DNA of 64,000 nt, from positions 1-64,000 of the forward strand of contig JAJDVL010000044.1 of the NCBI GenBank assembly GCA_022826155.1, written 5' to 3'. The stretch's first letter is position 1. Each line of letters starts with the position of its first letter. The notes under the pieces are model-generated. The model made no database searches and was not told where the DNA came from. It saw only the letters and a program-made list of their open reading frames with translations. The stretch is from Prochlorococcaceae cyanobacterium jk18x22bins.40 (lineage in GTDB: Bacteria; Cyanobacteriota; Cyanobacteriia; PCC-6307; Cyanobiaceae). Both the position numbers and the translations under genes were made by a program. This document shows positions 18,211-56,451 of the stretch, one piece after another.

Positions 18211-18250
18211 AACCAGATCCGCTCCAGGGGCGCCGCCAGCGCCTGGGGCC
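18202..18250. repeat. Left direct repeat of the accessory island
   Basis: About 49 bp, nearly identical to 32961-33012 and in the same orientation; an uninterrupted 30-bp stretch (18219-18248) is identical. Read on the minus strand it encodes PQALAAPLERIWFQ, matching PQALAAPLERVWSQ at the end of the M16 protease gene at the other border. It is thus a detached copy of that gene's 3' end, still joined to sipA as in an uninterrupted ancestor. Confidence 0.88.
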
Positions 18251-18744
18251 TAACCCAAGGGCTTCAAGCACGACCCTTGGGGATTGTAGACGTAGTCCGT
18301 GATGGTGCCGTCCTGGATTTTTTCAACGGCCTGGTCAATCACGGGGAGGGGAACCAGAAACCACTCCCGTGGGACCACGGCATTGCCAAAACGATCCTTC
18401 ACTTCAATGGTAAGCTGTGCAGGCTTGAAAACGCGATGGATGAGGGTTTCAAGCTTTTTGCTGTTGATGTTGTAAAGATCGTAAGTGGCGACAATTTCCA
18501 CCGCTGCCATGAGAAACGTGGGATCAAGCTGTGGATTGCCGATACGTTGTTCCACCTTGCCGTTGGTTACGCCGATTTTATGGATAAGATCACGATTTTT
18601 TATCACACTTGGCAATTTGGAGCAACTGCGTAAAATGTAAATTATGCCACTGGCTTCGTCTCCTTCTTCCCTATAATCCGCAAAAAGTGGACCTTGAATT
18701 GCCTTCATGATACGTCTACTGGTATCATCCTTGTTCCGAGGCAT
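18250..18744 (-). CDS. GIY-YIG-like nuclease domain protein
   Basis: A protein of about 164 residues with GIIYILRSCS followed by a gap and HKIGVTNGKVEQRIGNP, then YDLYNINSKKLETLIHRVF and REWFLVPL. This is the layout of GIY-YIG proteins of the T5orf172 kind, in which the second motif reads KIG and a late Glu/Asn completes the site. The ATG at 18744 overlaps the end of the helicase gene in another frame by 20 bp; an ATG at 18708 is an alternative. It is the last gene before the left island border. Confidence 0.65.
   Translation of the reverse strand: MPRNKDDTSRRIMKAIQGPLFADYREEGDEASGIIYILRSCSKLPSVIKNRDLIHKIGVTNGKVEQRIGNPQLDPTFLMAAVEIVATYDLYNINSKKLETLIHRVFKPAQLTIEVKDRFGNAVVPREWFLVPLPVIDQAVEKIQDGTITDYVYNPQGSCLKPLG
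18254..18281. repeat. Inverted repeat at the left island border
   Basis: Perfect 8-bp arms CCCAAGGG (18254-18261) and CCCTTGGG (18274-18281) separated by 12 bp, immediately inside the left direct repeat and within the last codons of the GIY-YIG gene. It could act as a stem-loop at the end of the minus-strand transcript (there is no T-run) or be part of the integration site. Confidence 0.6.
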
Positions 18745-19936
18745 CGGGTTCGGCAATCAGATTGGTGAAGCGGGCGCTGGTCTTGCCTGGCGCATCTCGG
18801 GTGACGCGGCCAATAATCTGCACAATCTCCGTCAAGCTGGAGCGATAGCCCACGGTCAGGGCGTGTTCGCACCAAATCCAGTCGAAACCCTCCTTGGCCA
18901 TGCCCAGGGCAATAATCACGTCCACGTGGTCCCGGTTGGTCTTTTGGGCAGGGGTTTTGAGCGCTGCGGAGACCTTGTCCCGCCGGGCAGGATCATCATC
19001 CACCAGGTCGGCAATGCGCAGCAGCCGTCCCGTGGATGTTCGCACAAGCTGGAAACCCGTGACGGGATCGGCCCCTTGCCATTCCCCCAGTTCCTCGATG
19101 ATGTGTTCCACCTCCCTGATCTTGTCCTTCGTGCTTTCCCGTGAATTCACGGACGGGATGTGGATGATGGTCTTCTCGTTGGGGTCCAGCACCTTCAGGA
19201 TGGTGTCGGCGTAGGCGCCTGTGTAGAAGAAATAACCGATGTCAAGCCTTTTCAGATATTGATAGCCGTTCAGTTGTTCGTAGTAGGTATAGGTGACGGT
19301 CTCGAACCTTGCCTCATCGTGGGGCATGAGCACGGGCTCGGTGTCGCCGCGGAAGTAGGATCCCGTCATGGCGGTAATATGCGCCTGATCCCGTGCCATC
19401 AGCGCAGCCAATTGGGCGCCGAGCCTGTTGTCGGGATTGGCGGAGACATGGTGAAACTCATCCACGGCGATGAGTCGATGATCAAAGGCCTCCACGCCAA
19501 AGGCCTCAATGGCGTTGCGGAACGTGGCGTGGGGGCACACCAGCACCCGATCCCGACTCTTCAGGAACGCGCCCACAGCCTCCACCTTGCTGCCTTCGCT
19601 GCCTGGCGCGTTGCAGAGGTTCCATCGCGGCTGAACCGTCCAGTCGGCCCAGAAGCCGGACCTTGACAGGGGCTCATCGGCAAAGCTGGCGCCGATGGAT
19701 CGTTCAGGCACGGTGATGATGGCTTGCCGCAGCCCCTGGTTGTGCAGCTTGTCCAGGGCGATGAACATGAGCGCCCGGCTCTTGCCCGAGGCGGGTGGGG
19801 ACTTGATGAGCAAGTACTGCTCCCCCCGCTTCCCGTAGGCCCGTTCCTGCATGGGACGCATTCCCAGTTCATTGGCCCTGGTGGAGCTGCCGTTCCGGGC
19901 CGTGGTGAGCGAGACGGAAGGAACGAATCGGCTCAT
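18725..19936 (-). CDS. Superfamily 2 (DEAD/DEAH, ResIII-type) helicase, C-terminally short
   Basis: A 403-residue ATPase with Walker A SPPASGKSRALMFIAL (residues about 45-60), motif II VDEFHHVSANPD, motif III-like ITAMTGSYFRGD and the C-terminal lobe ending in IVQIIGRVTRDAPGK. These are the motifs of type III/DISARM-style SF2 helicases acting on DNA or RNA. The start ATG (19936) follows an in-frame TTG. The frame stops soon after motif VI at NLIAEPDASEQG, where I would expect relatives to continue, so it looks truncated and runs into the GIY-YIG frame. Probable operon with that gene. Confidence 0.78.
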   Translation of the reverse strand: MSRFVPSVSLTTARNGSSTRANELGMRPMQERAYGKRGEQYLLIKSPPASGKSRALMFIALDKLHNQGLRQAIITVPERSIGASFADEPLSRSGFWADWTVQPRWNLCNAPGSEGSKVEAVGAFLKSRDRVLVCPHATFRNAIEAFGVEAFDHRLIAVDEFHHVSANPDNRLGAQLAALMARDQAHITAMTGSYFRGDTEPVLMPHDEARFETVTYTYYEQLNGYQYLKRLDIGYFFYTGAYADTILKVLDPNEKTIIHIPSVNSRESTKDKIREVEHIIEELGEWQGADPVTGFQLVRTSTGRLLRIADLVDDDPARRDKVSAALKTPAQKTNRDHVDVIIALGMAKEGFDWIWCEHALTVGYRSSLTEIVQIIGRVTRDAPGKTSARFTNLIAEPDASEQG

Positions 19937-19939
19937 CCG

Positions 19940-20155
19940 AAACCCTGTCAATGCTGAGGTGATGGCAGCCTACCACCGGGCCGGGCTTCCCATGAAGGGG
20001 CTTGCAATGAAAACCCGGTCAAAAAGTCATGGTGCGTCAGAAGCCCCATCAATACTTGCATGTTGCTGCTTGTTCCGCCGATGCAGGCCCCCAGGAGTGC
20101 TGGGAATGAAAACCCGGTTAAAACTTTTGCGCTCATGCCCAGAACGGCACATAGC
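19940..20155. repeat. Left cluster of ~100-bp repeats beside the Schlafen-like gene
   Basis: Two units begin with TGAAAACCCGG at 20008 and 20107, period 99 bp; a shortened unit precedes them from about 19940. They match the cluster at 21679-21925. The last unit runs into the final codons of the 20133-21605 gene (its stop codon lies in the repeat); the first covers the region just upstream of the helicase start. Short hairpin-forming segments (CCC...GGGG) recur in each unit. Confidence 0.7.
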
Positions 20156-21605
20156 CCGTACGGGGGTGGGTGGGGTCTGCCGGGCGGATCAACCCTGCTT
20201 CCAGTGTCTTCCGAATAATAGAGGACACTTGGGAGGCGTTTTTCGCATCAATCCCGAAACGCTCACGTAGCGTCGCATTCTTCATTTGTTGACCGCTGAC
20301 ATATTTCAGGGCTGCGTGCTGATAGCAAGCCCTTATGCGCTCCTCCAGCGTCATATCTCCAAAGCTGCGAGGTGCAAACAAAATGACACGAACTGCTTCT
20401 CCCTCCTCTCTAAAATCCGGTGGTGGGAGTTGGTGGATCTCTACCTCGTCAACCACGTTGTCGATACCGGTGCCCCCTTCTTCGCAAAGCCCCATACGAC
20501 GCATAAGAGAGGCCAGGGCTTCATTCCGTGAACGGGGCACTGAATCCAGAAATCGCTCCGGGTTCACCAACGGCTTTCCTGGGTTGGTGATCTCCAAGCG
20601 GTCACTGAACATCTCGATGGAAGGCCCTGCACCCGTAATGGTCATGTTCTGGTGGATCAAGGCATTGGCAATCAGCTCCCGCAAGGCAATAGATGGATAC
20701 AGTGGCTGATCTTTGCGAAAAGCTTTCTCAATCAGTTCATTACGGGGAATCAGCGCATCGATATAATCCATCAATCCTTGAAAGCCGTTGGCATAGCCCT
20801 TCTGCTGATCCTGACGATGGGTCACTGTGTCAGCACGGCTCAAGCCGTCATAGACAACAAAGCGCACGGCTTTGCGGGCTATGGAAGACCCGAATTTACT
20901 CAGATTCTTGGCAAACAGAATTGCTCCAAGATTGGTGATATTCCACTGGTTGCCCACATCCTTCTGGATCAGGTTGTCTGAAACCAGTTTCTCGAAAATG
21001 CCTTGCCGATTATCTGGCAAGGGTTGTCTGGTGAGATCAAAATAACTCGCATAGTCCAGCAATGATAAAACGTCATCACCAGACAGGAATTGTGCAGCAA
21101 CTCCACTTTCCCAGATATAGGGTTGTAGCTTTCTCCACAAGGCGCGTTGCCACTCCGGGTGATCCGATAAGCGCGGCGTTGCGCTGCCAATCCGTACATA
21201 TGCCGTGCGCTCAAACTCCACTGGACTGTTGGCTGCTGCCGGAATACTCAACAGGACCAACCGCTGGCCGTGATGCTCCACCGGTTTAAAATCAAAGGTG
21301 ATGCCGGGGGAGAGTTGCCGCACCAGCCAAAACTCAAGTGGCTGGTTGCCAACTTTCTGTATGGAGGGCTCAAAGCTTGTGCCAACAATTGCATGGTCGC
21401 TATCCCTGATTCCCCACAGCCCATAGGCAAAATCCCGATCCGCCAACCGTGCAGCATTGGCAAGGGCAGAGATCAACTTGTCGACCATCTGGGGGCCAGC
21501 CTTGTTCTCCTTGAATTCAACCCATGACGTTTCTGCAGGCAGGGCACACAAATCGTCAATCAGGGCGCGCACCCGCTCGGCGTTCCCCAGAAGATCAGGT
21601 GTCAT
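20133..21605 (-). CDS. Schlafen/AlbA_2-type ATP-binding protein
   Basis: A 490-residue protein with an N-terminal AlbA_2 domain (about 20-150; TSWVEFKENKAG, ISALANAARLADRDFAYGLWGI, AYVRIGSATPRL), a middle helical region and a HATPase_c_4-like C-terminal part (YPSIALRELIANALIHQN, IEMFSDRLEITNPG, EEGGTGIDNV) ending with a winged helix. Such proteins are often annotated as RecG-like or transcriptional regulators; AlbA_2/Schlafen domains bind or cut nucleic acid. Its role here is unproven. It sits between two repeat clusters and upstream of the helicase on the same strand. Confidence 0.82.
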   Translation of the reverse strand: MTPDLLGNAERVRALIDDLCALPAETSWVEFKENKAGPQMVDKLISALANAARLADRDFAYGLWGIRDSDHAIVGTSFEPSIQKVGNQPLEFWLVRQLSPGITFDFKPVEHHGQRLVLLSIPAAANSPVEFERTAYVRIGSATPRLSDHPEWQRALWRKLQPYIWESGVAAQFLSGDDVLSLLDYASYFDLTRQPLPDNRQGIFEKLVSDNLIQKDVGNQWNITNLGAILFAKNLSKFGSSIARKAVRFVVYDGLSRADTVTHRQDQQKGYANGFQGLMDYIDALIPRNELIEKAFRKDQPLYPSIALRELIANALIHQNMTITGAGPSIEMFSDRLEITNPGKPLVNPERFLDSVPRSRNEALASLMRRMGLCEEGGTGIDNVVDEVEIHQLPPPDFREEGEAVRVILFAPRSFGDMTLEERIRACYQHAALKYVSGQQMKNATLRERFGIDAKNASQVSSIIRKTLEAGLIRPADPTHPRTGYVPFWA

Positions 21606-21678
21606 CCACGATCCCCCTGAAGCGTGGGTGATCCGCCTTGCTCGGCAGCCTGGAGCGCCGGGCCGCTGTTGCCACCTG

Positions 21679-21925
21679 TCAAAACCCGATCAAAAAACCA
21701 CACCATGCCAGAAACCGCGGCAGCGCTTGGATTATGGCACCTTACCACCGGGCTTGGCCCCCATGGAGGGGATTGCAATCAAAACCCCATCAAAAAATCA
21801 CACCGTGCCAGAAACCGCGTCAGTACTTGAGTTGTGGGGGCTTACCATCGGGTCAGACCTCCATAAAGGGCCTTCCGATCAAAACCCGATCAAAACTTCC
21901 ACCCCCATGCTCAGAACGGGATCAA
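21679..21925. repeat. Right cluster of 100-bp tandem repeats
   Basis: Units begin with TCAAAACCC at 21679, 21779 and 21879, exactly 100 bp apart; the third is partial. The first 50 bp of units 1 and 2 differ at about seven positions, the second halves less closely match. Unit 3 carries AACTT...CATGCTCAGAACGGGATC, resembling the last codons of the Schlafen-like gene in the left cluster. The region is non-coding; frames crossing it shift at each unit. Confidence 0.78.
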
Positions 21926-22012
21926 CCCCGTGGGAGGGGCACATTTCGGATGTGGATGGCGCGGGCCGAGGGCCGAGGGCAGCCCGCGCTGGTGATCGTA
22001 GATGGTGCAACG

Positions 22013-22127: not shown

Positions 22128-23333
22128 ATGATTGAGGCAGTTCACGTTGAAAACTTCAAAGCACTCAAAAGCATTGACCTGACAGGGCTGCCGCAACTGG
22201 CAGTGTTTGTGGGAAAGAACGGGGTTGGCAAAACCAGCTTGTTTCGGATTTTCTCATTTCTGAAAAGCTGTTTGTCAGAAAACGTTCGCCTGGCATTACA
22301 ACACGAAGGCGGCTTTAACGGATTCAAGGACGTGATTACTCGTGGCGTTGACGAGTCGAAGAGTATCGTAATTCAACTGAAATTTTACTTGATCATAGCA
22401 GGTAAAAAGCGTTTGGTAACCTATCATTTGGAAATTGGTTTGGAGGGCAAGAAGCCTGTGGTGCGTCGCGAGATATTACGCTATAAGCGAGCTTCCCGTG
22501 GTGGTGCGCCCTTTCACTTTATTGACTTTTCCAACGGCAAAGGAGTTGCGGTCAGCAATGAAGAAGACTTTAGCAAACCTGATATAGAGCTCACCAGGGA
22601 AGAGCAGGCGGTTGATCCAGACGTGCTGGCCATTAGCAGTCTCGGACAACTCAAACGTTTCAAGGCGGCAAAAGCGTTTCGCGAACTGATAGAAAACTGG
22701 CATATCTCGGATTTTCACATTAACGAAGCACGAGGCAAGAAGGATCAAGACTTGGGCGCTCATCTTTCTCGTTCAGGCGATAATCTCCCTTCGGTTGCCT
22801 TACGGATGAAAGAAGACCACCCCGAGATTTTTGAAACGGTATTGCAGAAAGTACGGGAAAGGGTGCCCGGCATCTCTGATATTGAAGCCAAAACCAGCGA
22901 GGATGGCAGTCTTCTGATTCGTTATGCCGATAGTGCTTTTAAGGATCCTTTTTTTGATTTCAATGTTTCCGATGGTACGATAAAGATGTTTGCCTATCTG
23001 CTATTGCTGCACGACCCCAAACCACACAAGGTTCTCTGTGTAGAAGAGCCTGAAAACCAGTTGTATCCCGAGTTGATGACCATACTGGCGGAAGAGTTTC
23101 AAGAGTATGCCAGCAAAGGTGGGCAGGTCTTTGTTTCTACCCATTCGCCGCAATTTCTGAATGCCATACCATTGGAGAGCTTATTCTTAATTGAGAAAGA
23201 TCAAGGCATTTCCAAAATTATGCCTTTTATCGCAGATCCACTCGTGTGCGGCCAGATTGAGGCGGGAGATAAGGCAGGCTATCTATGGGAACAGGGAATG
23301 TTTGAAGGGTTCAGTCGGAGGGTAGACAGATGA
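22128..23333 (+). CDS. OLD-like AAA ATPase (AAA_21)
   Basis: A 401-residue ABC/SMC-type ATPase. It opens IEAVHVENFKALKSIDL and has Walker A FVGKNGVGKTSLFRIF, signature-like FNVSDGTIKMFAYLLLL, Walker B VLCVEEPENQLYP and the H-loop QVFVSTHSPQFLNAI. These are features of AAA_21/OLD-family ATPases of phage-defence pairs. It is on the plus strand, unlike the other island genes, and its stop overlaps by 4 bp the start of a broken DUF4276-like gene. The sequence is less GC-rich than the backbone, as expected for acquired DNA. Confidence 0.85.
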   Translation: MIEAVHVENFKALKSIDLTGLPQLAVFVGKNGVGKTSLFRIFSFLKSCLSENVRLALQHEGGFNGFKDVITRGVDESKSIVIQLKFYLIIAGKKRLVTYHLEIGLEGKKPVVRREILRYKRASRGGAPFHFIDFSNGKGVAVSNEEDFSKPDIELTREEQAVDPDVLAISSLGQLKRFKAAKAFRELIENWHISDFHINEARGKKDQDLGAHLSRSGDNLPSVALRMKEDHPEIFETVLQKVRERVPGISDIEAKTSEDGSLLIRYADSAFKDPFFDFNVSDGTIKMFAYLLLLHDPKPHKVLCVEEPENQLYPELMTILAEEFQEYASKGGQVFVSTHSPQFLNAIPLESLFLIEKDQGISKIMPFIADPLVCGQIEAGDKAGYLWEQGMFEGFSRRVDR

Positions 23334-24032: not shown

Positions 24033-25136
24033 CTACCGGGCTTCACTCTCCCCAGTCACCTCCATGAACAGTCGGACCAGATTCACGTTGATGTAGTAGT
24101 TGCTGGTGCCGATACGGTGCTTCTGAACGAATCCATGCTCTGCCAGTTGCTCCAGATACCGGGACGCCGTTTGTCGTGCTTGAAGATTCAGGTCTTTTTG
24201 GACGTATGCAATTCGTGTGTAGGGATGCCGGAAGAGATTGTTGAGCAGATCCTGGCTGTAGAGCTTGGGAAGTTCGGCTCTCATGCGGTGCTTGACCGAT
24301 GCCATCTGGCGGTGGATGCCGTGAACCAGTTGCAGCGTCACTGCGGGGGTCTCAGCAACGGCATTGAGCATGAAGATGATCCAGTCCTGCCAGTGGCCAG
24401 TGGCCCGCACCGCTTGCAGGAGTCGGTAGTACTGCGCTTTATTGCGTGTGATGTGGCGGGACAGGTAGAGGATGGGGATGTCCAGAAGTCCGGAGCGGAC
24501 CAGGTAGAGCACGTTCAGGATGCGCCCGATGCGTCCGTTGCCGTCAGAGAAGGGGTGAATGCTTTCAAAGCGATGGTGGATGAGCGCCATTTTGATCAGC
24601 GGATCAAGGTCACACTGGCTGTCGTCGTTGATAAAGTGCTCAAGCGCGCTCATCTGGTCAACGATCACGCCGGCATCCTGTGGCGGTGTAAAGACCGTCT
24701 CGCCGGTGCTCTCGTTTTTTAGCACCGTGCCGGGGATCTTACGGAATCCGTCGCTTCTCCCTTTGAGCAGGCGATAGAGCTCAATGAGCGTGTTGTTGGT
24801 GATCAGCCCGGTGGAGTGGAGCCGCTCAAAACCCAACTTGACGGCGTCCCGGTAACGCGCCACCTCCTTGGCCGCAGCAGACTGGGGACTATCCGGGAAC
24901 AGATCGGCTTGGAAAAGCTCGTCCTGGGTGGTAACGATGTTTTCAATCTCCGAAGAGACCTTTGCCTCCTGCAGGGCGAGGGTGTCAATCAGGATGCCCT
25001 GGTTGGGAATGCTGCGGGCCTGTCCCTTGAGGGTGCCCAAGGCCGGACTGGCGCGGTTGAGAGCCTTGAGCACGGGCACCGTCTCCAGGTGAGCGGTAGG
25101 CGGGAAGCTGGGGATGGGGTCGCTGGGATGCACCAC
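24033..25136 (-). CDS. fic: Fic family AMP-transferase (class II inhibitory motif, C-terminal winged helix)
   Basis: A 367-residue protein from GTG with a Fic_N domain, inhibitory helix motif SSEIEN at 61-66 (S-x-x-x-E-N), Fic core motif HPFSDGNGRIGR at 194-205 and a C-terminal winged helix (about 285-355; YVQKDLNLQARQTASRYLEQL). Fic enzymes transfer AMP from ATP to target hydroxyls, with the Glu of the inhibitory motif limiting activity. The intact motif suggests an autoinhibited enzyme. The wHTH domain fits binding to the triple operator upstream. Two further decayed fic copies lie at 25.9-26.1 and 32.8-32.9 kb. Confidence 0.92.
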   Translation of the reverse strand: MVHPSDPIPSFPPTAHLETVPVLKALNRASPALGTLKGQARSIPNQGILIDTLALQEAKVSSEIENIVTTQDELFQADLFPDSPQSAAAKEVARYRDAVKLGFERLHSTGLITNNTLIELYRLLKGRSDGFRKIPGTVLKNESTGETVFTPPQDAGVIVDQMSALEHFINDDSQCDLDPLIKMALIHHRFESIHPFSDGNGRIGRILNVLYLVRSGLLDIPILYLSRHITRNKAQYYRLLQAVRATGHWQDWIIFMLNAVAETPAVTLQLVHGIHRQMASVKHRMRAELPKLYSQDLLNNLFRHPYTRIAYVQKDLNLQARQTASRYLEQLAEHGFVQKHRIGTSNYYINVNLVRLFMEVTGESEAR

Positions 25137-26522: not shown

Positions 26523-27002
26523 TCATGTGCAAGGCCTAAAGCCGTCCAGATAGGACTTGATTCTGTCAAGGGTCCAGACAGGGACTCCAGTTCCCCAGAA
26601 GTCCTTGTCATTTGAGAGGATGGCACAGTTTGGTTCCCTGAATCCTAGTAACACAGCGATCAGCTCCCAGTCGTTTGAGGAGTTCTTCTTGTGAGAAGCT
26701 CTCTTCGGCAGCCTGGCCTGGGCAGACAGTCGAAGATGGTTCTGTTCATCGTAGACTACGACTTGAATCAGGTCAATGTATTTCTTGCGTTCTTGTAACC
26801 GCTCTTGCAACATCCTTGCATTCCTGTCTCGACTGATTTCTGGTAAGTGTTTTTCGGCTTCTTGCCAGATTGACATAGTCGAATAAAGATCTATATTCCT
26901 GTCTGACAAAAGTCTCAAAAAATGATTTGGTCCCTGGTTAAAAGTACTGCGAATAAGTATGTTCGCATCAACAAGCAAGGAGGTGGGAAAGAGTTTAATC
27001 AT
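26523..27002 (-). CDS. PIN-domain toxin-like ribonuclease
   Basis: From ATG 27002 the product (159 residues) starts MIKLFPTSLLVDANILIRS, with the first PIN acidic residue in VDANIL, a mid Glu (WQEAEKHLPEI) and the late acidic cluster SNDWELIAVLLG and LSNDKDFWGTG. This is the order of the PIN active site of VapC-like RNases. Its start overlaps the end of the upstream small gene by 8 bp, as in toxin-antitoxin pairs with antitoxin first. Confidence 0.78.
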   Translation of the reverse strand: MIKLFPTSLLVDANILIRSTFNQGPNHFLRLLSDRNIDLYSTMSIWQEAEKHLPEISRDRNARMLQERLQERKKYIDLIQVVVYDEQNHLRLSAQARLPKRASHKKNSSNDWELIAVLLGFREPNCAILSNDKDFWGTGVPVWTLDRIKSYLDGFRPCT

Positions 27003-27237
27003 TGCTTTCCCTTCCCAAGTAGGCCTTAAGTCTGCGTATTGTCTCGTCAAGAGTATCCGAGCCTTCGTCCCAGTTGCCAGGTAGGCCGTATTTGTCCCTC
27101 ATTTCCTGCATGAAGAGATCCGGCCCCCTGCCCAGTGCCCGCCTTGCCTCCCAGTCAATCGGAGGGGTCAGCTCTTTAAGGGTTGCGGCGGGAGGATCGT
27201 CAAGATTGAGGACGATGACAGGTCTTGGGTCAGGCAT
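26995..27237 (-). CDS. Putative antitoxin of the PIN module
   Basis: An 80-residue acidic protein from the ATG at 27237 (MPDPRPVIVLNLDD), overlapping the PIN gene by 8 bp. The C-terminal half is helical with ETIRRLKAYLG at the end. No DNA-binding domain is obvious. The assignment rests on size and position; a longer open frame upstream is not convincing. Confidence 0.6.
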   Translation of the reverse strand: MPDPRPVIVLNLDDPPAATLKELTPPIDWEARRALGRGPDLFMQEMRDKYGLPGNWDEGSDTLDETIRRLKAYLGRESND

Positions 27238-27406
27238 GATGGAGCAGGGTGGAAACTCTTGGAGTCTAGCACATGACAGCATGAAAAGGGAATGACATGC
27301 CAAAGTAACAGTCCTCCAGGGAACTGGGATTTCAGGCTTGACCGAGAACTTGGTAGTGACACCGAGTTGAGACGGTCCTTCTGTCAGGATGCTGACAGTA
27401 CAGGAA

Positions 27407-27439
27407 GAGGCTGAGTTGCCAGGGATGCCCAACCAATGG
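27407..27439. repeat. Right 33-bp direct repeat flanking the PIN toxin module
   Basis: Partner of 26449-26481; three mismatches in 33. The pair could have formed by duplication on insertion of the module or mark its excision by recombination. Confidence 0.75.
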
Positions 27440-42922: not shown

Positions 42923-42995
42923 TGCCAGGTCCCAGATTTGAACTGGGGACACGGCGATTTTCAGTCGCCTGCTCTACCAACTGAGCTAACCCGGC
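42923..42995 (-). tRNA. tRNA-Phe (GAA)
   Basis: A 73-nt cloverleaf: acceptor 5' GCCGGGT pairs with 3' ACCTGGC, D-arm AGCTCAGTTGGTAGAGC, anticodon arm with GAA in the loop CTGAAAA, T-arm CCCAGTTCAAATCTGGG and discriminator A. CCA is not encoded. It reads Phe codons UUU/UUC. Confidence 0.97.
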
Positions 42996-43040
42996 AGATT
43001 TTGGCCCGATGGGGGTCGGACCAGAACCATAGCGCCAATT

Positions 43041-43730
43041 TTAACCCACCGTGGGGCGGCGGGCGCTTTTAGGTGGTGTGCGGGCCAGACAGAGGAGCCC
43101 CGCCACGGGGATGTGGGCTGCCTCCAGGGGGGCGGCGGCGGCCAGGGCGGTGCTGCCGGTGGTGAGGATGTCGTCCACCAGGAACACCAGGCGCCCCTGC
43201 TGCCCCCCGGCAGACAGCACCCGAAAGGCGTCCTGCAGGTTGCGGCGGCGGCCACTGGCGCCCAAATGGTGCTGACCGGGGCGGGGCTGCTTCTTGAGCC
43301 ACTGAACCTGGGGCCAGCCGGAGCACTGGCCCAGGCTCCGGCTGAAGGCCTCCGGCAGGGGATTACCGCGACGTTTCCAGCCGGGAATCGGCATCAACAC
43401 AGGCGGAGACCCCTCCCAGTTCAGGCCCGTCAGTAGGTGTTCCGCAGCGCAGTGGAGCACGCCGGGCAGGGGATTCTGGCGGCAGGCCAGCAGTTGGCTG
43501 CGCCAGCTTTGCTGATACAAACCCACCGCCCAGAACCGCATTGGTTCATTGCCGTGGAGCACAGCGTCCGGCCAGGCCCACCGTTTAAGGCAGTTTCCGC
43601 AGGGCCGGTGGCGATCCGTAGCGGCGCCCCCGCAACAAGGGCAGGTGGGCAGGGTGATCAGGTCCTGGCCAAGCTGCAATAGCCGTGCCAGGGGCCGATC
43701 GGTGCCTGTTGGCGAGGGATTGCTGACCAT
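43041..43730 (-). CDS. ComF-family phosphoribosyltransferase-like protein
   Basis: A 229-residue protein with an N-terminal zinc ribbon (CPCCGGAATDRHRPCGNC, four Cys) and a PRPP-binding loop VFLVDDILTTGSTAL near the C-terminus. This is the ComF layout; in naturally transformable bacteria ComF helps DNA uptake, elsewhere its role is unclear. Alone in its neighbourhood, so competence cannot be inferred. Confidence 0.88.
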   Translation of the reverse strand: MVSNPSPTGTDRPLARLLQLGQDLITLPTCPCCGGAATDRHRPCGNCLKRWAWPDAVLHGNEPMRFWAVGLYQQSWRSQLLACRQNPLPGVLHCAAEHLLTGLNWEGSPPVLMPIPGWKRRGNPLPEAFSRSLGQCSGWPQVQWLKKQPRPGQHHLGASGRRRNLQDAFRVLSAGGQQGRLVFLVDDILTTGSTALAAAAPLEAAHIPVAGLLCLARTPPKSARRPTVG

Positions 43731-43803
43731 GACAGGAGGACCGAGGGGATGGGGAGCCTTGCCTCAGCGTTCCCACAGCCCCGTCACCACCACCATACGG
43801 GGC

Positions 43804-44070
43804 TCACCCGGGAATGGCCCGCAGCATGGCCACCAGGGTGCGATGGGCATCCTCGCTATCCGTCAAGGGGTGGTCAAAGGCAATCCTCAGGGGCTGCCCG
43901 TCCACCTTCAGGTCCATCCAACTGGTGGTGACCGCCACCAGCCGCGCTACGGCGGCCTGTGGGCAATTGCCGTAGTGGCGTGCGTAGGCGGCAACGGCGC
44001 TGCCGTGGTCGTCGTTCATGTGGCGGCAGATGCGGTCACTGACGGCAGGGGTGAGGGGATCGGCGGCCAT
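43804..44070 (-). CDS. DUF2470-type protein
   Basis: An 88-residue protein (MAADPLTPAVSDRICRHMND) with HMNDDHGSAVAAYARHYG, SWMDLKVDGQPLRIAFDHPL and ending VAMLRAIPG, the small DUF2470 domain found at the C-terminus of heme-binding flavoprotein-like proteins. The longer upstream frame has no such similarity. Function unknown, perhaps heme or tetrapyrrole related. Confidence 0.75.
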   Translation of the reverse strand: MAADPLTPAVSDRICRHMNDDHGSAVAAYARHYGNCPQAAVARLVAVTTSWMDLKVDGQPLRIAFDHPLTDSEDAHRTLVAMLRAIPG

Positions 44071-44105
44071 AACGCTGGATAGGGGGCATCCCATCCTGCA
44101 CCAGT

Positions 44106-44219
44106 TCAGCCCTGCCACCGGGTCCAGAGCAAACTCAGCAGCCTGAACCCACTGAAGCTCACGTAACCCGCCAGGACCAGAAACAGACCGATGGACAGGA
44201 TGGCTTGCAGACGCTTCAT
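44106..44219 (-). CDS. 37-residue membrane peptide
   Basis: MKRLQAILSIGLFLVLAGYV... with one hydrophobic helix (about 6-30) and a Trp/Arg end. It sits between two same-strand genes (35 bp after, 17 bp before the neighbours). Short but protein-like; real expression unproven. Confidence 0.42.
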   Translation of the reverse strand: MKRLQAILSIGLFLVLAGYVSFSGFRLLSLLWTRWQG

Positions 44220-44236
44220 GGGTGGTTGGCCTCCGA

Positions 44237-45502
44237 TCACACAGACAACGTGGGTTCCCCATTCTGACGGCGCGCCAGCCGGGCCGCTCCGCAGGCGGTG
44301 GAGGCATGGGGCCGGTTCAGAACGGGGCAACCCAGGGCCTGTTGGCGCAACTGCCGCCATGTGGAATTCCGGGCGCCGCCCCCCACCGTCAGCACCCGCC
44401 GCACCGCCGGAGCGCCCAAGGCTTGTAGCCGCGCCCAACCCCGGGCCTCAATGGCGGTGATCCCCTCCAACAACCCTTGCAAAAACAGGGCATCACTCAC
44501 GGGCCGTGGCTCCAGGCAGGGCATCAAGCCGGGATCGTCCACCGGGAACCGCTCACCGGGGGCGGGGAGGGGCAGGTAACGGAGGCCTGTGGGATGGCGG
44601 GGGTCAAGCTGGCGGCTCAGGACGGCAATGGCGGCATCGTCAAAAAATTGCCGCAGCACCCCGCCGCCACTATTGGACGCTCCACCCACCAGCCATTGGT
44701 TGCCGATGGGGTGACTGTAGACGCCAGCGCCCTGCAACGGTTCAGGGCACACCTGTTTCAGGGCCATGGTGGTGCCCAGGACGGTGACCCCGTCCCCAGG
44801 TTGGGGGTCCACCGCCAGCACAGCGGCGTTGCCGTCCGTGGTGCCGGCTGCCACCCGGGCTGTGGTGGGAAGACCCAGCTTGTTGGCCACCGATGGGTGG
44901 AGAGGACCCAGCACGGTGCCGGGGCACACCACACGGGGCAGCAACCCGGACCAGGGTTGGCTGCCAATGGCCCCACTCCAGCCACCCCGCACCGGATCCC
45001 AGCCCAACTTGAGGCTGTTGTGCTGGTCTCCCCAGCGCCACTGCCCCAGCAACCACCCCGTCAGCCATTCCCCCTGGTGACGCAGACCATGGGCATGGGG
45101 GTAGCGCCGTTGCAGCTCCAGGGCTCTGGCCATGGTCCCGCTTGCCGATGCGGCGGGATGGCCCGGTTCTGCAAGCTGCCGACACCGGCTTTCCCACTGG
45201 GGCTGCGCCGCGTTGTAGGGCAAAGCGTTTCCCAAGGGACGACCCTCGGAGTCCATGGCCAGCAGGGTGCCGGAGGTGCCGGCCACCGCCAGAGCAGTCA
45301 CTTGGCGCCGCAGGGGCAAGGGGATGGCGCCACAAAGCTGGATCAAGCCCTGCTGCCAGGCTTGGGGCTGCACAAAAGGGCGGGGGTAGGCACAACCGGC
45401 TTGATGGTGCAGATCTCCGGCAGGATCCATGAGGGCCACCCGCACACCGCTGGTCCCCAGATCCACCCCCAGGGCAAGCTGTTGTGGGGTGTCGCCAGCC
45501 AT
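44237..45502 (-). CDS. FGGY-family carbohydrate kinase
   Basis: A 421-residue ATPase with the actin-like fold: phosphate-1 LGVDLGTSGVRVAL at the start, GTSGTLLAMD, GTTDGNAAVLA, adenosine region VLTVGGGARNSTWRQL near the end. FGGY kinases phosphorylate pentoses; cyanobacterial members of this size are thought to act on D-ribulose or xylulose. The exact sugar is not shown. Confidence 0.83.
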   Translation of the reverse strand: MAGDTPQQLALGVDLGTSGVRVALMDPAGDLHHQAGCAYPRPFVQPQAWQQGLIQLCGAIPLPLRRQVTALAVAGTSGTLLAMDSEGRPLGNALPYNAAQPQWESRCRQLAEPGHPAASASGTMARALELQRRYPHAHGLRHQGEWLTGWLLGQWRWGDQHNSLKLGWDPVRGGWSGAIGSQPWSGLLPRVVCPGTVLGPLHPSVANKLGLPTTARVAAGTTDGNAAVLAVDPQPGDGVTVLGTTMALKQVCPEPLQGAGVYSHPIGNQWLVGGASNSGGGVLRQFFDDAAIAVLSRQLDPRHPTGLRYLPLPAPGERFPVDDPGLMPCLEPRPVSDALFLQGLLEGITAIEARGWARLQALGAPAVRRVLTVGGGARNSTWRQLRQQALGCPVLNRPHASTACGAARLARRQNGEPTLSV

Positions 45503-45523
45503 GACGGCTTGGGTCCCCGGAGG

Positions 45524-46762
45524 TCAGACGGACAGGGCCATCTGCCGCAGGGTGTCGGCCATGGCGGTCACGTCTTCCCAAGGCGCCTGAAGGTCCCTGC
45601 GGCCGAAGTGGCCATAGGCGGCGGTGTCCTGGTAAAAGCGACCGCCCCGTTCAGCGCAGATGGTGGCCAGCCCGAAATTCCGAATAATGGCCGCCGGTCG
45701 CAGATCAACCTGCTGCTGAACCAGCTCCATGAGCTGGTCATTGCTCAACTGACCGGTGCCGAAGGTGTCCACCAGAATGGACACGGGGCGGGCACGGCCA
45801 ATGGCGTAGCTGAGTTGCACCTCCGCCCGGCGGGCCAGGTCCGCCGCCACGATGGCCTTGGCCACAAAACGGGCGGCATAGGCCGCTGAGCGGTCCACCT
45901 TGGTGGGATCCTTGCCGGAGAAGGCGCCGCCCCCATGGCGGGCATAGCCCCCGTAGGTATCCACAATGATCTTGCGGCCGGTGAGACCGGCATCCCCTTG
46001 GGGTCCCCCCACCACGAATTGACCAGTGGGATTCACCAGGAACTGGGTGGTGCTCCGCTCCGGCTTGAGGGGGAGATCAGCGGTGGCCGGCGCCACCACG
46101 TGGGTCCAGAGATCCTCGCGGACGTGGTGGCGGATGGCCTCGGCCTGGTGAAGGCCAGCCACCTGGGCGGTGTGTTGGGCGGAGATGAGGATCGTGTCAA
46201 TGGCCACCGGCTGGCCGTCGTCGTAGACGACGCTCACCTGGGTTTTGCCGTCCGGCAAGAGATAGTCCAGGGTGCCGGTTTTGCGAACACGGGCCAGTTG
46301 CAACGCCAGGCGATGGGCCAGGCTGATGGGCAGGGGCATCAACTCCGGCGTTTCATTGCACGCATAGCCGAACATGATGCCCTGGTCACCGGCCCCCACC
46401 AGATCCAGGGGATCCCCGTCGTGGTCAACTGCCTCATCCACCCCCTGGGCAATGTCCGGCGACTGCTGGTCCAGGGCCACCAGCACGGCGCAACTGTGGG
46501 CGTCAAAGCCGCCGGCCCGGGCGCCGGTGTAGCCAATGTCGGCAATGACCCGCCGCACAATGGCGGGGATATCAACGTTGGCTTTGGTTCTGACCTCACC
46601 TGTGACCAGGCAAAGGCCCGTGTTCACCACCGTCTCGCAGGCCACACGACTGTCGGGGTCGGCACTGAGCAGGGCATCAAGCACAGCGTCACTCACCTGG
46701 TCACAGATCTTGTCGGGATGGCCCTCAGTGACCGATTCCGAGGTGAACACATAGCGGGCCAT
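45524..46762 (-). CDS. metK: S-adenosylmethionine synthetase
   Basis: A 412-residue enzyme: [20 protein letters not shown] at the N-terminus, [12 protein letters not shown] and [19 protein letters not shown]. It makes SAM from Met and ATP, feeding the methyltransferases of this window. Length and motifs are typical. It follows the HAD and rpsA genes on the same strand. Confidence 0.98.
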
Positions 46763-46773
46763 GGGAATCCAGT

Positions 46774-47541
46774 TTAAGGGAGGAGACGCACCATGTTCCA
46801 GTCTGCCACCAAGGCATCAAAGCCATGGAGTCGGGGTGGACGCCGCCAGCCGCCGGTGTACCCCACCACCACACCAACGCCTGCGGAGCGGGCCATGGCC
46901 AAATCCTGGCCCGAGTCACCACAGAGGAGGCAGTGCTGCGGCTCAACACCAAGATCACGGCACAGATGAAGAGCAGCCTGGGCCGCTGGCTTGGCGGGCG
47001 CCTGGTCCGAGCCCCGGAAGACTGCGATGGCATCGAGCAAGTCCCAATGCCGCAGAAAGTCCCCGATGCCCTGGCGGCAATCCCCGCTGACGATGCCGCA
47101 GGGCAGGCCCAGATCCCGGGCACGGCGCAGCAGCGTTGGAACACCGGGCAACGGTGGGGTGAGCTGTGCTCTGGAGCGGTGGTCATCCAGGGGCTGGGCA
47201 TGGATGGTCTGGGCCGTGGCCAGGGCCTCGCTCCAGCTCAGGCCCACCTGGGCCAGACAGGTTGCCGTGCTGACGAGGTTATGGCCTGCACTGGCCACGG
47301 CTGTGGCCCCACCAGGATCCAGGCCCGCTGTCCCCTGGTCCGGGGAGAGTCCGTAGGCGCGCTGCAGCAGACCCGCAAGCTGGGGACGCAGGTCCCCAGG
47401 GACCTGCGCCAGCGCCGTGGCCAGGCGCGCCTGGGCCAGGGCCATGAGAAAGGCTTCGCTGTTGGAGAGGGTGCCGTCCTTGTCAAAAAGAACGGCCCGC
47501 AGCGGACCGAAGCGCTGGGGACCAATCTGCAGCCAGACCAT
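46774..47541 (-). CDS. HAD-superfamily hydrolase
   Basis: A 255-residue protein with motif [15 protein letters not shown], motif II Ser/Thr in GIVSGDC, Lys in [12 protein letters not shown] and motif [12 protein letters not shown]. This is a phosphoglycolate phosphatase-like HAD; substrate unknown. It lies between rpsA and metK, 11 bp upstream of metK. Confidence 0.87.
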
Positions 47542-47564
47542 GGGACAACGTGCTCCCGTGCTGT

Positions 47565-48719
47565 CTAACTCTCGTAAGCCGTCTCGACGCCCATTTGCAC
47601 AGGTTCCCCTTCCACCTGCTCTTCCAGCATCTGCTTGTAGAGCGCCGCCATTTCCTCGGCCCGGTCAAACACCTTCTGGGGATCGGTCAGCATGTCGCCC
47701 GGTTCCGGCTCCAGTGCCTTGGTGGAGAGGGAAATGCGGCCCCGCTCCGCATCCAGGTCAATGATCATCACCTTCAACTGGTCGCCCACGTTGAGGACGG
47801 CGTGGGACGTCTCGATGTGCTCATGGCTGATCTCCGAGATGTGCAGCAGGCCGCTGACGCCACCGATATCAATAAAGGCGCCGTAGGGCTTGATGCCACG
47901 CACGTTGCCCACCACCACTTCACCCACTTCCAGGCGATTCATCTTGCGCTCCACCAGGGCGCGACGGTGGCTGAGCACCAGGCGATTGCGTTCCTCGTCC
48001 ACCTCAAGGAACTTGAGGGGAAGCACTTCGTCCACCAGCTCCTCCTTGGGTTTGCGGGTGCTGATGTGGCTGCCGGGGATAAAGCCCCGCAGACCCTCCA
48101 CCCGCACCAGGGCGCCACCGCGGTTGGTGGCAAACACGTCGCTGTAGATGGTGGCGTCTTCCTTTTGCAACTGCCGGACCCGCTCCCAGGCCATCTGGTA
48201 TTCAATCCGGCGGATGGACAACATCAACTGGCCGTCTTCGTTTTCCTCCGAAAGGATGAAGAACTCCCGCACGTCCCCCGGCTGGAGCACGTCCGCCAGG
48301 TCTTCCACCCGGTTGATGGAGGCTTCCTGGAGGGGCATGAACGCTGCGGTTTTGGCGCCAATATCAATCAGGCTTCCCTTGGGTTCCAGGTTAAAGACCG
48401 TGCCACTCACCACGTCACCGGGGTTGAAGTGGTAGTCGTATTGGCTCAGCAGCGCCGTGAACTCCTCCATGGTGAAGCCCACGTCGTCCAGATCTCGGCT
48501 GCCTCCTCTGGACTGGGGTCTCTCTTCAGCGGCTACAACGACGTCATGGTCGCTGCTTTCCTCGCCAAGGGCAGCGCCGTCGATCTCGTCAGGTTCTACT
48601 GTTGCTTCCTCGGCAAGATCCAGGGTGTCGGCTTGAGGATGGTCGGCGGATGGCGCGTCGTTCTGTGTGCGGTCGTCAGGGCTGGACGTGTCGGAACTGG
48701 AAGTGGGTGTGGAAACCAT
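47565..48719 (-). CDS. rpsA: 30S ribosomal protein S1 with acidic N-terminal extension
   Basis: A 384-residue protein with three S1 repeats (about 95-165, 180-250, 265-335; e.g. GDVVSGTVFNLEPKGSLIDI, RGIKPYGAFIDIGGVSGLLH), as in cyanobacterial S1. The first 85 residues are Ser/Asp/Glu-rich and low complexity (DTSSPDDRTQNDAPSADHPQ), longer than I expect. S1 helps mRNA binding to the ribosome. The C-terminal 50 residues are acidic. psbT-psbB lie upstream on the same strand. Confidence 0.95.
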   Translation of the reverse strand: MVSTPTSSSDTSSPDDRTQNDAPSADHPQADTLDLAEEATVEPDEIDGAALGEESSDHDVVVAAEERPQSRGGSRDLDDVGFTMEEFTALLSQYDYHFNPGDVVSGTVFNLEPKGSLIDIGAKTAAFMPLQEASINRVEDLADVLQPGDVREFFILSEENEDGQLMLSIRRIEYQMAWERVRQLQKEDATIYSDVFATNRGGALVRVEGLRGFIPGSHISTRKPKEELVDEVLPLKFLEVDEERNRLVLSHRRALVERKMNRLEVGEVVVGNVRGIKPYGAFIDIGGVSGLLHISEISHEHIETSHAVLNVGDQLKVMIIDLDAERGRISLSTKALEPEPGDMLTDPQKVFDRAEEMAALYKQMLEEQVEGEPVQMGVETAYES

Positions 48720-48860
48720 TGACTGGGCGGCAGCCTGCCGGGAGCAGGAAGAAAATTGTGAAGATCCCTGGCGACTGCCGCACCACCATGGGAAGCTCGT
48801 AATCCTAGCCGTTTATGGCCGCAATGTTGAGGGGTTTGAACGCAAAAGCAACCGTATGAA

Positions 48861-48886
48861 AGGCCCCAACCAAAACGGCGGGGCCT
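48861..48886 (-). terminator. Stem-loop after psbB-psbT
   Basis: Arms AGGCCCC and GGGGCCT (7 bp, 12-nt loop) lie 42 bp after the psbT stop on the minus strand, followed by a short T-run (TTTC). It may end or protect the 3' end of the psbB-psbT transcript ahead of rpsA. Confidence 0.5.
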
Positions 48887-48927
48887 CACAAGGTTGCTGA
48901 TACAGGCTGCTGCCATCAGCAGTTCGC

Positions 48928-49023
48928 TCATTTGCCAATTTTGGGAGGGTCCCGGAAGGCAATGGCAAAAAACAGGGTGGAGAGGGCCAGAAAGAGAATG
49001 AGGATGTAGGAGAGAGATTCCAT
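48928..49023 (-). CDS. psbT: Photosystem II protein PsbT
   Basis: A 31-residue protein starting [15 protein letters not shown], single membrane helix, then [14 protein letters not shown]: the known PsbT sequence pattern. It sits at the PSII dimer interface near CP47. The gene lies 17 bp after psbB, its usual partner. Confidence 0.95.
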
Positions 49024-49040
49024 GTTGGGACTCCTGGGGT

Positions 49041-50603
49041 TCAGCGAACGGGTGTTCCAGCTTGGGACGCAGCCGCCGTTGTGGGAAGGCGGCGTGTGGA
49101 TTCGTCACCAAGCTTGCGGAACAGGCCAAATTCCACCTGATCCCCCAGATCGGGGTCAATGCCGGCAAACACGTCCCTGTAGAGGGTGCGGGCCCCATGC
49201 CAGATGTGGCCGAAGAAGAAGAGCAGGGCAAAGCAGGCATGGCCAAAGGTGAACCAGCCTCGGGTGGAACTGTGGAAGGTGCCGTCGGAGTGATAGCGCT
49301 CCAGATCGAACGTGAAGGGCTCGCCCAACTGGGCGGCCCGCGCCAGTTTCCTCACCTCGGCAGGATCGGTGACGGTTTGCCCGTTGAGCTCACCGCCATA
49401 GAGGCTGGCCGTCACGCCGGTCTGCTCGAAGGAATAGCGTGCCTCGGCCCGGCGGAAGGGAATGTCGGCCCGAACCACGCCGTCGCCATCCTCCAGAACC
49501 ACCGGGAAGTTCTCGAAGAAGTTGGGCAGGCGCCGCACGGACAACTCCCGACCTTCCTCGTCGGTAAAGACCGGGTGCCCCAGCCAACTGGTGGGCAGGC
49601 CGTCCCCGTTGACCATGGGACCTACGCGGAAGAGGCCGCCTTTGGCGGGGCTGTTGCCCACGTAGTCGTAGAAGGCGAGCTTCTCGGGAATGGCGGACCA
49701 GGCTTCTTCCTGGGTTGCCCCACCGGCTTCTGCCGCCTCCACCCTGCGGCTGATCTCCTGCTGGAAGTAGTTCTGGTCCCACTGGTAGCGGCTGGGGCCG
49801 AACAACTCGACGGGGTTGGCGGCGCTGCCGTACCACATGGTGCCGGCCACCACAAAGGCGGCAAAGAACACCGCGGCGATGGCGCTGGACAACACCGTCT
49901 CGATGTTGCCCATGCGCAGAGCCCGGTAGAGCCGTTGCGGGGGGCGGCTGGTGATATGGAAGACACCGGCGATGATGCCAACGATGCCTGCGGCAATGTG
50001 GTGGGCGACGATGCCGCCGGGATTGAAGGGGTTAAATCCGCCAGGACCCCAATCCGGCTGCACAGGCTCCACGTGTCCGGTGAGTCCGTAGGGATCGGAC
50101 ACCCACATGCCCGGACCAAAAACACCGGTCAGGTGGAAGGCGCCAAAGGAAAAGCAGCCCAGTCCGGCCAGGAGCAGGTGGATGCCAAAAATTTTGGGCA
50201 GGTCAAGGGCTGGTTCACCGGTTCTGGGGTCATACCAAATCTCCAGGTCCCAGAAGGTCCAATGCCAGATGGCGGCCAGGAACATCAAGCCGCTAAACAC
50301 GATGTGGGCCGTGGCTACCCCTTCAAAACTCCAGAAGCCCGGGTCCAGGCCCGTAGCGCCGGTGACGTCCCAACCACTCCAGCTTCCCGTGACGCCAAGG
50401 CGGGACATGAAGGGCAAAACAAACATGCCCTGACGCCACATGGGGTTCAGGACTGGATCAGAAGGATCAAAGACCGCCAGTTCATACAGGGCCATCGAGC
50501 CCGCCCAGCCGGCGACGAGAGCGGTGTGCATGATATGGACGGCTAACAGCCGCCCCGGGTCGTTGATAACAACCGTATGCACCCGATACCAGGGCAATCC
50601 CAT
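49041..50603 (-). CDS. psbB: Photosystem II CP47 reaction-centre protein
   Basis: A 520-residue chlorophyll protein beginning [35 protein letters not shown] with six membrane helices, conserved His ligands ([23 protein letters not shown]) and the large lumenal loop between helices five and six. It binds antenna chlorophyll in the PSII core. Operon with psbT; a 7-bp stem-loop lies in its leader. Confidence 0.98.
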
Positions 50604-50639
50604 TGTTTGGTTCCAGGGGTGATCTGCGAGAAAGTTGGA

Positions 50640-50659
50640 GAACCGGATGGCTCCGGTTC
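50640..50659 (-). promoter_or_regulatory. Stem-loop in the psbB leader
   Basis: Perfect arms GAACCGG/CCGGTTC with a 6-nt loop, about 37 bp upstream of the psbB ATG. On the minus strand TTGAAC overlaps its upstream arm. It could be a leader RNA hairpin affecting stability or translation. Seen; role inferred. Confidence 0.45.
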
Positions 50660-50853
50660 AAGGGAGAAGAGCGACCGATGGCCGATCAGGGCACCAATGT
50701 AGGAGCAGGACCGTGGCCGTGGGCTGCCCCCGTCGCGAACTGCAACCTGGCCCGTAACACAGGCCTCAACCTGGCTTACCCCAAGGCTCGCCCCACACTG
50801 AACAGGTACTGCCGTCCAGAATCAATTTGCAGCAAGCTCATCTCCTCCGGACC

Positions 50854-51270
50854 ATGCCCACCATCCACTTCCTTCGAGAGCAATTGGACGTTGATTGCCC
50901 CGCTGGCGTCATCCTGAGGGACGTGGCTCTGGAGGCCGGCGTAGAACTCTACGGTCTCAAGGGCAAGCTGGGCAACTGCGGTGGCTGCGGTCAGTGCAGC
51001 ACCTGCTTTGTGGCCGTAGCCGGTCAGGGGGAGGACACCTGCCTTACCCCACGGACGGCCCCGGAGCAACGCTTTCTCAAGAAACGACCTCCAAGCTGGC
51101 GCCTCGCCTGTCAAGCCGTGATTCGGGATTCCCTCGTGGTGGTGACCCGTCCCCAGGCCGGTTGGTCTGGTGGTGACGAGGCCCTGGCTGCTGCTGCGAG
51201 CGCCATGCCCGTGGACACCACCGTTGAGACGGTTGACGAGAAGACGGTTGACGAGACCGGGGAGCGGTGA
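50854..51270 (+). CDS. 2Fe-2S ferredoxin
   Basis: From ATG 50854 (MPTIHFLREQLDVDCPAG): GNCGGCGQCSTCFVAV supplies three cluster Cys and LACQ the fourth, the plant-type/adrenodoxin-like 2Fe-2S fold. A C-terminal acidic Thr-rich tail (TTVETVDEKTVDETGE) is added. It likely carries electrons in the cytoplasm; partner unknown. Divergent from psbB. Confidence 0.9.
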   Translation: MPTIHFLREQLDVDCPAGVILRDVALEAGVELYGLKGKLGNCGGCGQCSTCFVAVAGQGEDTCLTPRTAPEQRFLKKRPPSWRLACQAVIRDSLVVVTRPQAGWSGGDEALAAAASAMPVDTTVETVDEKTVDETGER

Positions 51271-51369
51271 TTGGGAGCTTGCTTGACAAACTGCGAAGCC
51301 ATGGCCCCCCAGCCCTCTGCCCATGGGCAGGAGTGATAGGCTCGATCTGCTCTGTTTTGCCGTTCCCGG

Positions 51370-51474
51370 ATGGAAACGAATCCCCTGGGTTTCATCACCA
51401 GCCTTTTATTCGTCCTGGTGCCGGCCCTGTTTCTCGTCATTCTTTACATCCAGACCAACAAGGCGCAGACCTGA
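51370..51474 (+). CDS. psbM: Photosystem II protein PsbM
   Basis: A 34-residue protein [20 protein letters not shown]...QTNKAQT, one membrane helix, matching PsbM, which lies at the PSII dimer interface. It is 99 bp after the ferredoxin gene, a known picocyanobacterial neighbourhood. Confidence 0.94.
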
Positions 51475-51497
51475 TCCCGGAACCCCACCGCTCCGGG

Positions 51498-51842
51498 TCA
51501 CCCCAGTCTGGTGGTGCCGTGGGGTCCTATGCGCAGGACGGCCTGGCCGATAATGTCCTGCCGTGCCGTGTTCCCCATGTGGTGACTGTCCGTGGACAGG
51601 GCCGAAAGGCCATGGAGCCTGAACTGTCCTGGCGCGGCTTCTTCTCCCAGCAGTTTGACCATGGTTCCCAACCGCTGATGGCGGACGACAACAATCACTC
51701 CAGGAGAAAGACCGTAATCGGCTGACAGCCGACGAAACAGGACGAAATCCCCGTCCTCCAGAGCTGGAACCATGCTGAGCCCGGACACGCGAACGATTCC
51801 GAAGCCCAGCAGGGCGTCAATACCTTGAACCAAGCGGATCAA
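51498..51842 (-). CDS. sodX: Nickel-superoxide dismutase maturation protease (S26-type)
   Basis: A 114-residue protease-like protein with VSGLSMVPALEDGDFVLF (catalytic Ser in SMVP) and GVIVVVRHQRLGTMVKLL (catalytic Lys), the reduced signal-peptidase fold. SodX removes the N-terminal propeptide of Ni-SOD to free the His-Cys nickel hook. Its start overlaps sodN's stop by 4 bp. Confidence 0.9.
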   Translation of the reverse strand: MIRLVQGIDALLGFGIVRVSGLSMVPALEDGDFVLFRRLSADYGLSPGVIVVVRHQRLGTMVKLLGEEAAPGQFRLHGLSALSTDSHHMGNTARQDIIGQAVLRIGPHGTTRLG

Positions 51843-56447: not shown

Positions 56448-56451
56448 GGGG

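Follow-up and report, generated by a model that had tools for sequence, protein, structure and literature searches.

Paired ~19-bp sites behind a Schlafen-AlbA_2/GHKL/winged-helix gene as candidate binding sites for the gene's own product

A Schlafen-family gene between two repeat clusters

The window, a stretch of 64,000 nucleotides from a Prochlorococcaceae cyanobacterium (contig JAJDVL010000044.1), carries a Schlafen-family gene with a cluster of repeats on either side (Table 1). Cluster A lies behind the gene and is followed by a helicase gene and a GIY-YIG nuclease gene, and cluster B lies in front of the gene's start. The encoded protein has the domain order SLFN_AlbA_2, HATPase_c_4 and then wHTH, which places it among the defence-linked Schlafen-AlbA_2/GHKL/wHTH proteins. 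Its AlphaFold model (pLDDT 86.7) contains a helix-helix-helix-strand-strand arrangement at residues 420-487, the predicted C-terminal winged helix, and structure comparison returns the uncharacterised protein DIP2311 (3lmm) and Schlafen N-domains as the closest folds. In a profile alignment, E25, E30 and D68 match the ExxxxE..D residues of the SLFN14 nuclease; the catalytic residues are thus present, and RNase activity is predicted.

Table 1 Features of the Schlafen locus, in window coordinates. L031 is the homologous locus of Pseudopontixanthobacter; L040 and L041 are on Roseobacteraceae plasmids.
Feature	Position	Strand	Remarks
GIY-YIG (T5orf172/MUG113) nuclease	18250..18756	-	168 aa vs 401 aa in L041
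DEAD-like helicase, first gene past the array	18725..19951	-	408 aa vs 690 aa (L031) and 682 aa (L040)
Partial degenerate third unit, putative core TTGACAGGGTTTCGGATG, reaching into the helicase start	about 19935..20007	-	within the 74% match at 19939-20058
Site 2 behind the gene (A1), CTTTTTGACCGGGTTTTCAT	20007..20026	-	
Site 1 behind the gene (A2), AGTTTTAACCGGGTTTTCAT	20106..20125	-	~10 nt past the stop codon; 18/19 identical to A1, distance 99
Schlafen AlbA_2 + HATPase_c_4 (GHKL-like) + C-terminal winged-helix protein, 490 aa	20133..21605	-	PF04326 3.7e-13, PF13749 3.2e-25
Site B1, TTTTTTGATCGGGTTTTGAC, upstream of the Schlafen gene's start codon	21678..21697	-	
Site B2, TTTTTTGATGGGGTTTTGAT	21778..21797	-	
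Site B3, AGTTTTGATCGGGTTTTGAT, least decayed copy	21878..21897	-	0 mismatches to the pattern
Relic of another gene of this family, 3' end (PPTGLIPF* vs PRTGYVPFW)	21898..21962	-	local score reached by 0/1000 shuffles

Five cores of the form YAAAACCCSRTYAAAA lie at 20009, 20108, 21680, 21780 and 21880, compared with 0.24 matches expected in shuffled sequence when up to two mismatches to the pattern are allowed. The core-to-core distances are 99 in cluster A and 100 and 100 in cluster B, which bears out the units and periods given in an earlier sequence-only reading of this DNA. That reading treated a unit of ~100 bp as the repeat. Whole units are indeed related (76% alike over 100 bp between B1 and B2, and 74% over ~120 bp between the two clusters), but the conserved element spans only ~19 bp and reads on the minus strand, as does the Schlafen gene. 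The same reading placed the gene's 3' end (20133-20190) or a look-alike in the end units, and this proved correct: the 64 nt preceding the core of the look-alike align to the gene's 3' end better than all 1000 shuffles. Its description of the repeats as non-coding is reasonable, given a period of 100 and broken reading frames. The CCC/GGGG hairpin that it proposed finds no support, as single units folded on either strand with RNA parameters do no better than shuffles (z -0.04 to +1.14). An Rfam search with the repeats gave no match.

The surroundings hold several other genes of possible interest. The helicase and GIY-YIG genes (18250-19951, minus strand) look like the outer parts of what was once a longer gene pair, brought together by a ~1.7-kb deletion relative to L031. 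On the far side, an AAA_21 ATPase gene (22128-23333, plus strand) closest to PADLOC HEC-01B (5e-165) points away from array B and is a candidate defence gene. Further on lie a gene for a SoFic-like Fic adenylyltransferase (24033-25136, minus strand; PADLOC SoFic 7e-112) and one for a PIN_2-domain protein (26523-27050, minus strand) with an overlapping ORF in front (26995-27432); this ORF and the PIN_2 gene may form a toxin-antitoxin pair.

Paired sites behind the gene in other genomes

A genome-wide search found no further copies of the unit elsewhere in the organism's own 1.99-Mb genome; the sites themselves recur in other genomes, so the possibility that they occur only here, raised in the sequence-only reading, does not hold. 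Searches of GTDB genomes, plasmids, phages, viral contigs and E. coli supplied the homolog loci, of which 67 remained once redundant ones were removed; despite this de-duplication, the loci are still related to each other. When the 260 bp past the stop codon were scanned automatically for the best-matching repeated 17-mer, a pair with at least 15 of 17 matches emerged at 35 of the 67 loci, compared with 0.1 in shuffles, none inside genes and one upstream. With weaker pairs added by eye, the count rises to 54 of 67, a number that reflects by-eye curation of the automated list. The other 13 loci, several distant viral-contig homologs (L070-L076) among them, have no recognisable pair.

Homologs that share the pair architecture occur in several phyla, on plasmids, in a phage and in an E. 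coli island. Among proteobacterial homologs with 69-73% identical proteins, the same motif, AGTTTTGATCGNGTTTTGAT on the coding strand, stands ~10-15 nt past the stop codon. A second copy follows 98-100 bp on in Pseudopontixanthobacter (L031), a proteobacterial MAG (L032), Roseobacteraceae plasmids (L040, L041 and L044) and Cereibacter (L043), and a weaker one 110 bp on in phage Musica (L042). Site 1 begins at most 20 nt from the stop codon at 48 of the 54 loci with a pair. Because the DNA between the two copies is unrelated between families, the conserved entity is the ~19-bp site and not the 100-bp unit; the 100-bp similarity seen in the window stems from local tandem duplication, and conservation across families covers the ~19-bp site only.

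The sites are confined to the vicinity of this gene. Each of five genomes with a TTTTGAT-type gene has exactly two sites, both at the gene, and other genomes show scattered single matches only; in every genome checked, the motif adjoins this one gene alone. When the homolog loci were scanned upstream, only the window had sites close to the start of the gene itself; a match at L064 comes from a truncated gene whose own site falls inside the scanned stretch. Gap-pattern searches of viral contigs returned few or no matches, the motif varying too much between clades.

Restriction genes are frequent neighbours. Among 50 downstream ORFs, HSDR_N is found in 14, ResIII in 14 and SWI2_SNF2 in 11 (overlapping sets), and an hsdR model matches 14; Methylase_S is found in 12 of 48 upstream ORFs. 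The gene often sits between a specificity or methylase gene and hsdR or a helicase gene. At L033 and L034 a small ORF separates it from hsdR, and a second pair, with its sites 88 bp apart, lies directly before hsdR. This ORF, which encodes 81 aa (7314-7559 in L034, also in L033) and located between the two site pairs, is a possible passenger gene. At L041 an MmeI-like type IIG enzyme precedes the gene and a helicase and a GIY-YIG gene follow it, while the neighbours at L048 encode a DUF1156 protein and a PLD-type anti-phage protein.

Other copies stand alone: in phage Musica, in an E. coli island with a retron, beside integrases, or between unrelated genes. A match to the gene is present in only 4 of 5426 E. 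coli genomes. At one of these (L124) the pair is preserved at 17/17, with no annotated gene for ~930 bp, and at L130, L131 and L137 the pair is kept although the adjoining genes end convergently. When related E. coli islands are compared, the shared sequence resumes ~135 bp past site 2, with the gene and pair lying together inside the variable cargo stretch. The gene and its pair are inherited as one unit. The L124 island itself (E. coli YZ22PE67, 42934-61454) bears an integrase and also encodes a retron with a St85-type effector and a WYL protein.

Proteins that join a Schlafen-family RNase to a minimal histidine kinase and a wHTH have been described at BREX and BREX-related loci as RNase effectors, in those passages of PMC12839542 that deal with them; the same passages place the family beside BREX-type loci in more than a thousand taxa and read its members as backup RNase effectors. 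As far as these passages go, the BREX-linked Schlafen proteins, and likewise genes annotated 'MloB', share the domain order and the lodging in RM/BREX-type defence loci found here, and nothing is said there of paired sites behind the gene. The open-access literature that we searched yielded no description of such sites, and a search on the name 'mloB' returned nothing relevant. The paired site is therefore best read as previously undescribed, and the pair offers an easy mark by which such modules could be found and classified.

Site anatomy, spacing and specificity

The site AGTTTTGATCGGGTTTTGAT consists of two half-sites 11 bp apart. A 7-mer repeat at a lag of 11 is present in 57% of sites compared with 4% of shuffled ones, and all other lags are at background. 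Half-sites differ by clade (GTTTTGAT, GCTTGAT, ATTTGA, AATTGAT and TATGTGA), and a second subfamily has GTGYTTTAACGCAAA, without an obvious inner repeat. The two copies of one locus agree at 14.9 of 17 positions and copies from different loci at 9.8 of 17, the within-locus figure being somewhat inflated since selection of the best pair gives 11-12 by chance. Site distance tracks protein distance (r=0.67). This co-variation could not be clearly localised to the winged helix, whose partial correlation of ~0.19 is no better than that of other protein segments. Residue ~457 (window numbering), which follows a conserved Asn of the predicted recognition helix and may be A, S, Q, K or Y, seems tied to half-site type; as a candidate specificity determinant it is a lead only.

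Homolog loci have only 2-3 sites each, at spacings of 56-147 bp. The spacings are not uniformly distributed (uniform null, 0/2000) and cluster at 66 (13 loci), 76-78, 86-90, 96-100 and 109-110 bp. Depending on the subset, the period is 10.1-11, and 10.1, not 11, fits best when the 66-bp class is left out; the classes are thus about one helical turn apart, 'about' being all that these values support.

Many spacers also contain an IHF-like site. A match to the IHF consensus (at least 8/9) occurs in 28 of 54 spacers compared with 6.6 expected (P 2e-12; controls 3/54 and 6/54), for a hypothesis that was formed after seeing the sequences. Most of these matches lie at most 26 bp from site 2. They are unevenly distributed, with 1 in 10 cyanobacterial spacers compared with 27 of 44 others (P 0.004), and none lies between the copies in the window. 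To our knowledge, cyanobacteria have HU and no IHF.

The sequence-only reading had left the nature of the repeats open between protein-binding arrays, a repeated small RNA and recombination sites for cassette exchange. The first is favoured by the 11-bp half-site repeat, the within-locus identity combined with clade differences, the roughly helical spacing and the IHF-like site. The second is disfavoured by the lack of a fold above chance and by inter-copy DNA that is unrelated between families, and the third, as a main function, by a motif that stands beside one gene only and by sites that are normally only 3'. That reading was right to hold the repeats unlike CRISPR: the window spacers are ~75% alike, homologs have 2-3 sites and no spacer arrays, and no cas family is found among the neighbours scanned. 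An integron attC array was rejected given a fold no better than shuffles, the absence of the motif elsewhere in the genome and its restriction to one gene family, and a type III toxin-antitoxin system given a conserved part of ~19 bp with unrelated spacers, a location downstream of the gene, no fold and no Rfam match. A regulator of the RptR type was also rejected, since the protein here is a Schlafen protein of 490 residues and its sites, located behind the gene, contain no TAGCTA.

Proposed function and competing readings

We interpret the repeats as paired protein-binding sites of the adjacent Schlafen-AlbA_2/GHKL/winged-helix gene, at which a bent or looped complex would control local expression, and assign this reading a probability of roughly 55%. 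A conserved pair that co-varies with the gene in front of it suggests that the protein, or a complex containing it, acts on the DNA of its own locus as well; judged from sequence, the repeats resemble previously overlooked docking sites for the DNA-binding protein that the gene encodes. The Schlafen protein would bind both ~19-bp sites, most likely via its C-terminal winged helix. With the second site ~6-10 helical turns off (66-110 bp), the DNA between them would bend or loop, often with the help of an IHF-type bend outside cyanobacteria, and the resulting nucleoprotein complex just behind the gene would set the expression of what lies nearby. At restriction loci this complex would stand between the methylase/specificity genes and hsdR or the helicase gene, acting as a repression loop or a read-through block, and its simplest role there would be to hold back the restriction gene. 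Binding, looping, regulation and its direction, the transcript controlled and the trigger are what we infer from the arrangement of the sites. In this way the pair would connect the family with the question of how cells keep restriction in check until their DNA is fully methylated.

Known systems offer partial precedents. In the gal repressosome, HU sits between the GalR operators OE and OI. The likeness lies in two operators ~10 helical turns apart with a bending protein between them, the counterparts here being predicted sites and an IHF-like consensus in the spacers of homologs; the half-sites here are direct and not inverted, however, any promoter between the sites would be hypothetical, and the protein is unrelated. 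In the P1 plasmid parS site, boxes flank an IHF site directly behind parB, an arrangement that ours would resemble in having boxes and an IHF site right after the gene whose product binds them. It differs in that we found no ParA or ParB, many loci are chromosomal and the protein is again unrelated. The small controller (C) proteins of type II RM systems are encoded before the endonuclease gene and have their own operators; they would be comparable in the possible timing of restriction after modification, and their fold is unrelated.

A stricter form of control, in which the pair flanks a promoter that drives the restriction gene downstream and the Schlafen protein, acting as a C-protein-like controller, delays or induces restriction, is conceivable though on balance doubtful. 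It would explain why hsdR or helicase genes are so often downstream with Methylase_S upstream, as well as the additional pair immediately before hsdR at L033 and L034. It also has a precedent in RptR, a 9-kDa four-helix regulator that represses type I RM islands by binding direct TAGCTA repeats upstream of its own gene (PMC12255303). RptR is a local regulator linked to hsd genes, as the protein here would be, and its direct-repeat binding sites are conserved with it; here, the candidate sites lie behind the gene at a ~100-bp spacing and the protein is far larger. Against such an operator, -10 hexamers are not enriched in the spacers (20 loci, 18.9 expected), and because stand-alone and convergent copies keep intact or perfect pairs, a plain operator for the next gene is insufficient. 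Beyond the next gene, the complex might act on the gene's own transcription unit, or might restrain the protein itself.

The last option has a stronger version, which we regard as unlikely, in which the Schlafen RNase sits on the paired sites, either kept inactive or loaded there, until a phage disrupts the complex and so releases or activates it, making the pair part of a sensor and gene regulation unnecessary. Because the Schlafen catalytic residues are kept as EED in 36 of 49 homologs, an RNase restrained by DNA is possible; such a tether would also account for pairs retained in stand-alone loci and for a gene and pair that lie within cargo differing between related E. coli islands, and it would suit a family filed as backup RNase effectors in the pertinent passages of PMC12839542. 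The third triad residue, however, is N in 9 of 49 homologs, an influence of DNA on activity is a supposition, and two sites in a cell offer room for few molecules. Somewhat less probable, in our estimation, is the more specific proposal that the pair serves not as an operator but as the sensor or safety catch of a single-gene defence module, with the RNase, which carries an ATPase and a winged helix, parked on two phased, bent sites behind its own gene and freed or armed by a phage-caused change. If this were true, DNA in cis would restrain an RNA-cleaving effector.

A recombination end of the attC or attP kind, moving the gene between loci, is very unlikely. The gene and pair do travel jointly across phyla and contexts, pairs are duplicated around the gene in the window and around the small ORF at L033 and L034, integrases lie beside some copies, and many recombination complexes contain IHF sites. 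Yet the sites lie only 3' of the gene, no common recombinase accompanies them, genomes contain no dispersed copies, the unit does not fold and the copies of one locus vary in step with the gene beside them. To a functionless intergenic tandem duplication kept by chance we give almost no credence: whole 100-bp units have been duplicated and partly decayed in the window, but the recurrence of the same ~19-bp sites in the same place across phyla, with unrelated intervening DNA, already contradicts it.

We take the Schlafen locus of the window to be a partly decayed example, since its A sites have diverged more than B3 and its helicase and GIY-YIG genes look truncated. A ~1.7-kb stretch of L031 is absent between these two genes, and the helicase is probably shortened. 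A genome of the same genus (G006) has a broken remnant of the Schlafen gene (73-74% in two pieces) with no recognisable array. Cluster A belongs to the Schlafen gene that is still there. Cluster B starts with the relic of a second family gene's 3' end and would thus have been the array behind that gene; probably the whole module was once copied and one of its two Schlafen genes then disappeared, after which the number of sites would have grown by tandem duplication of ~100-bp units. Downstream of the gene at L083 and L115, three site copies with near-identical spacers (56-bp and 66-bp units) point to tandem growth as in the window.
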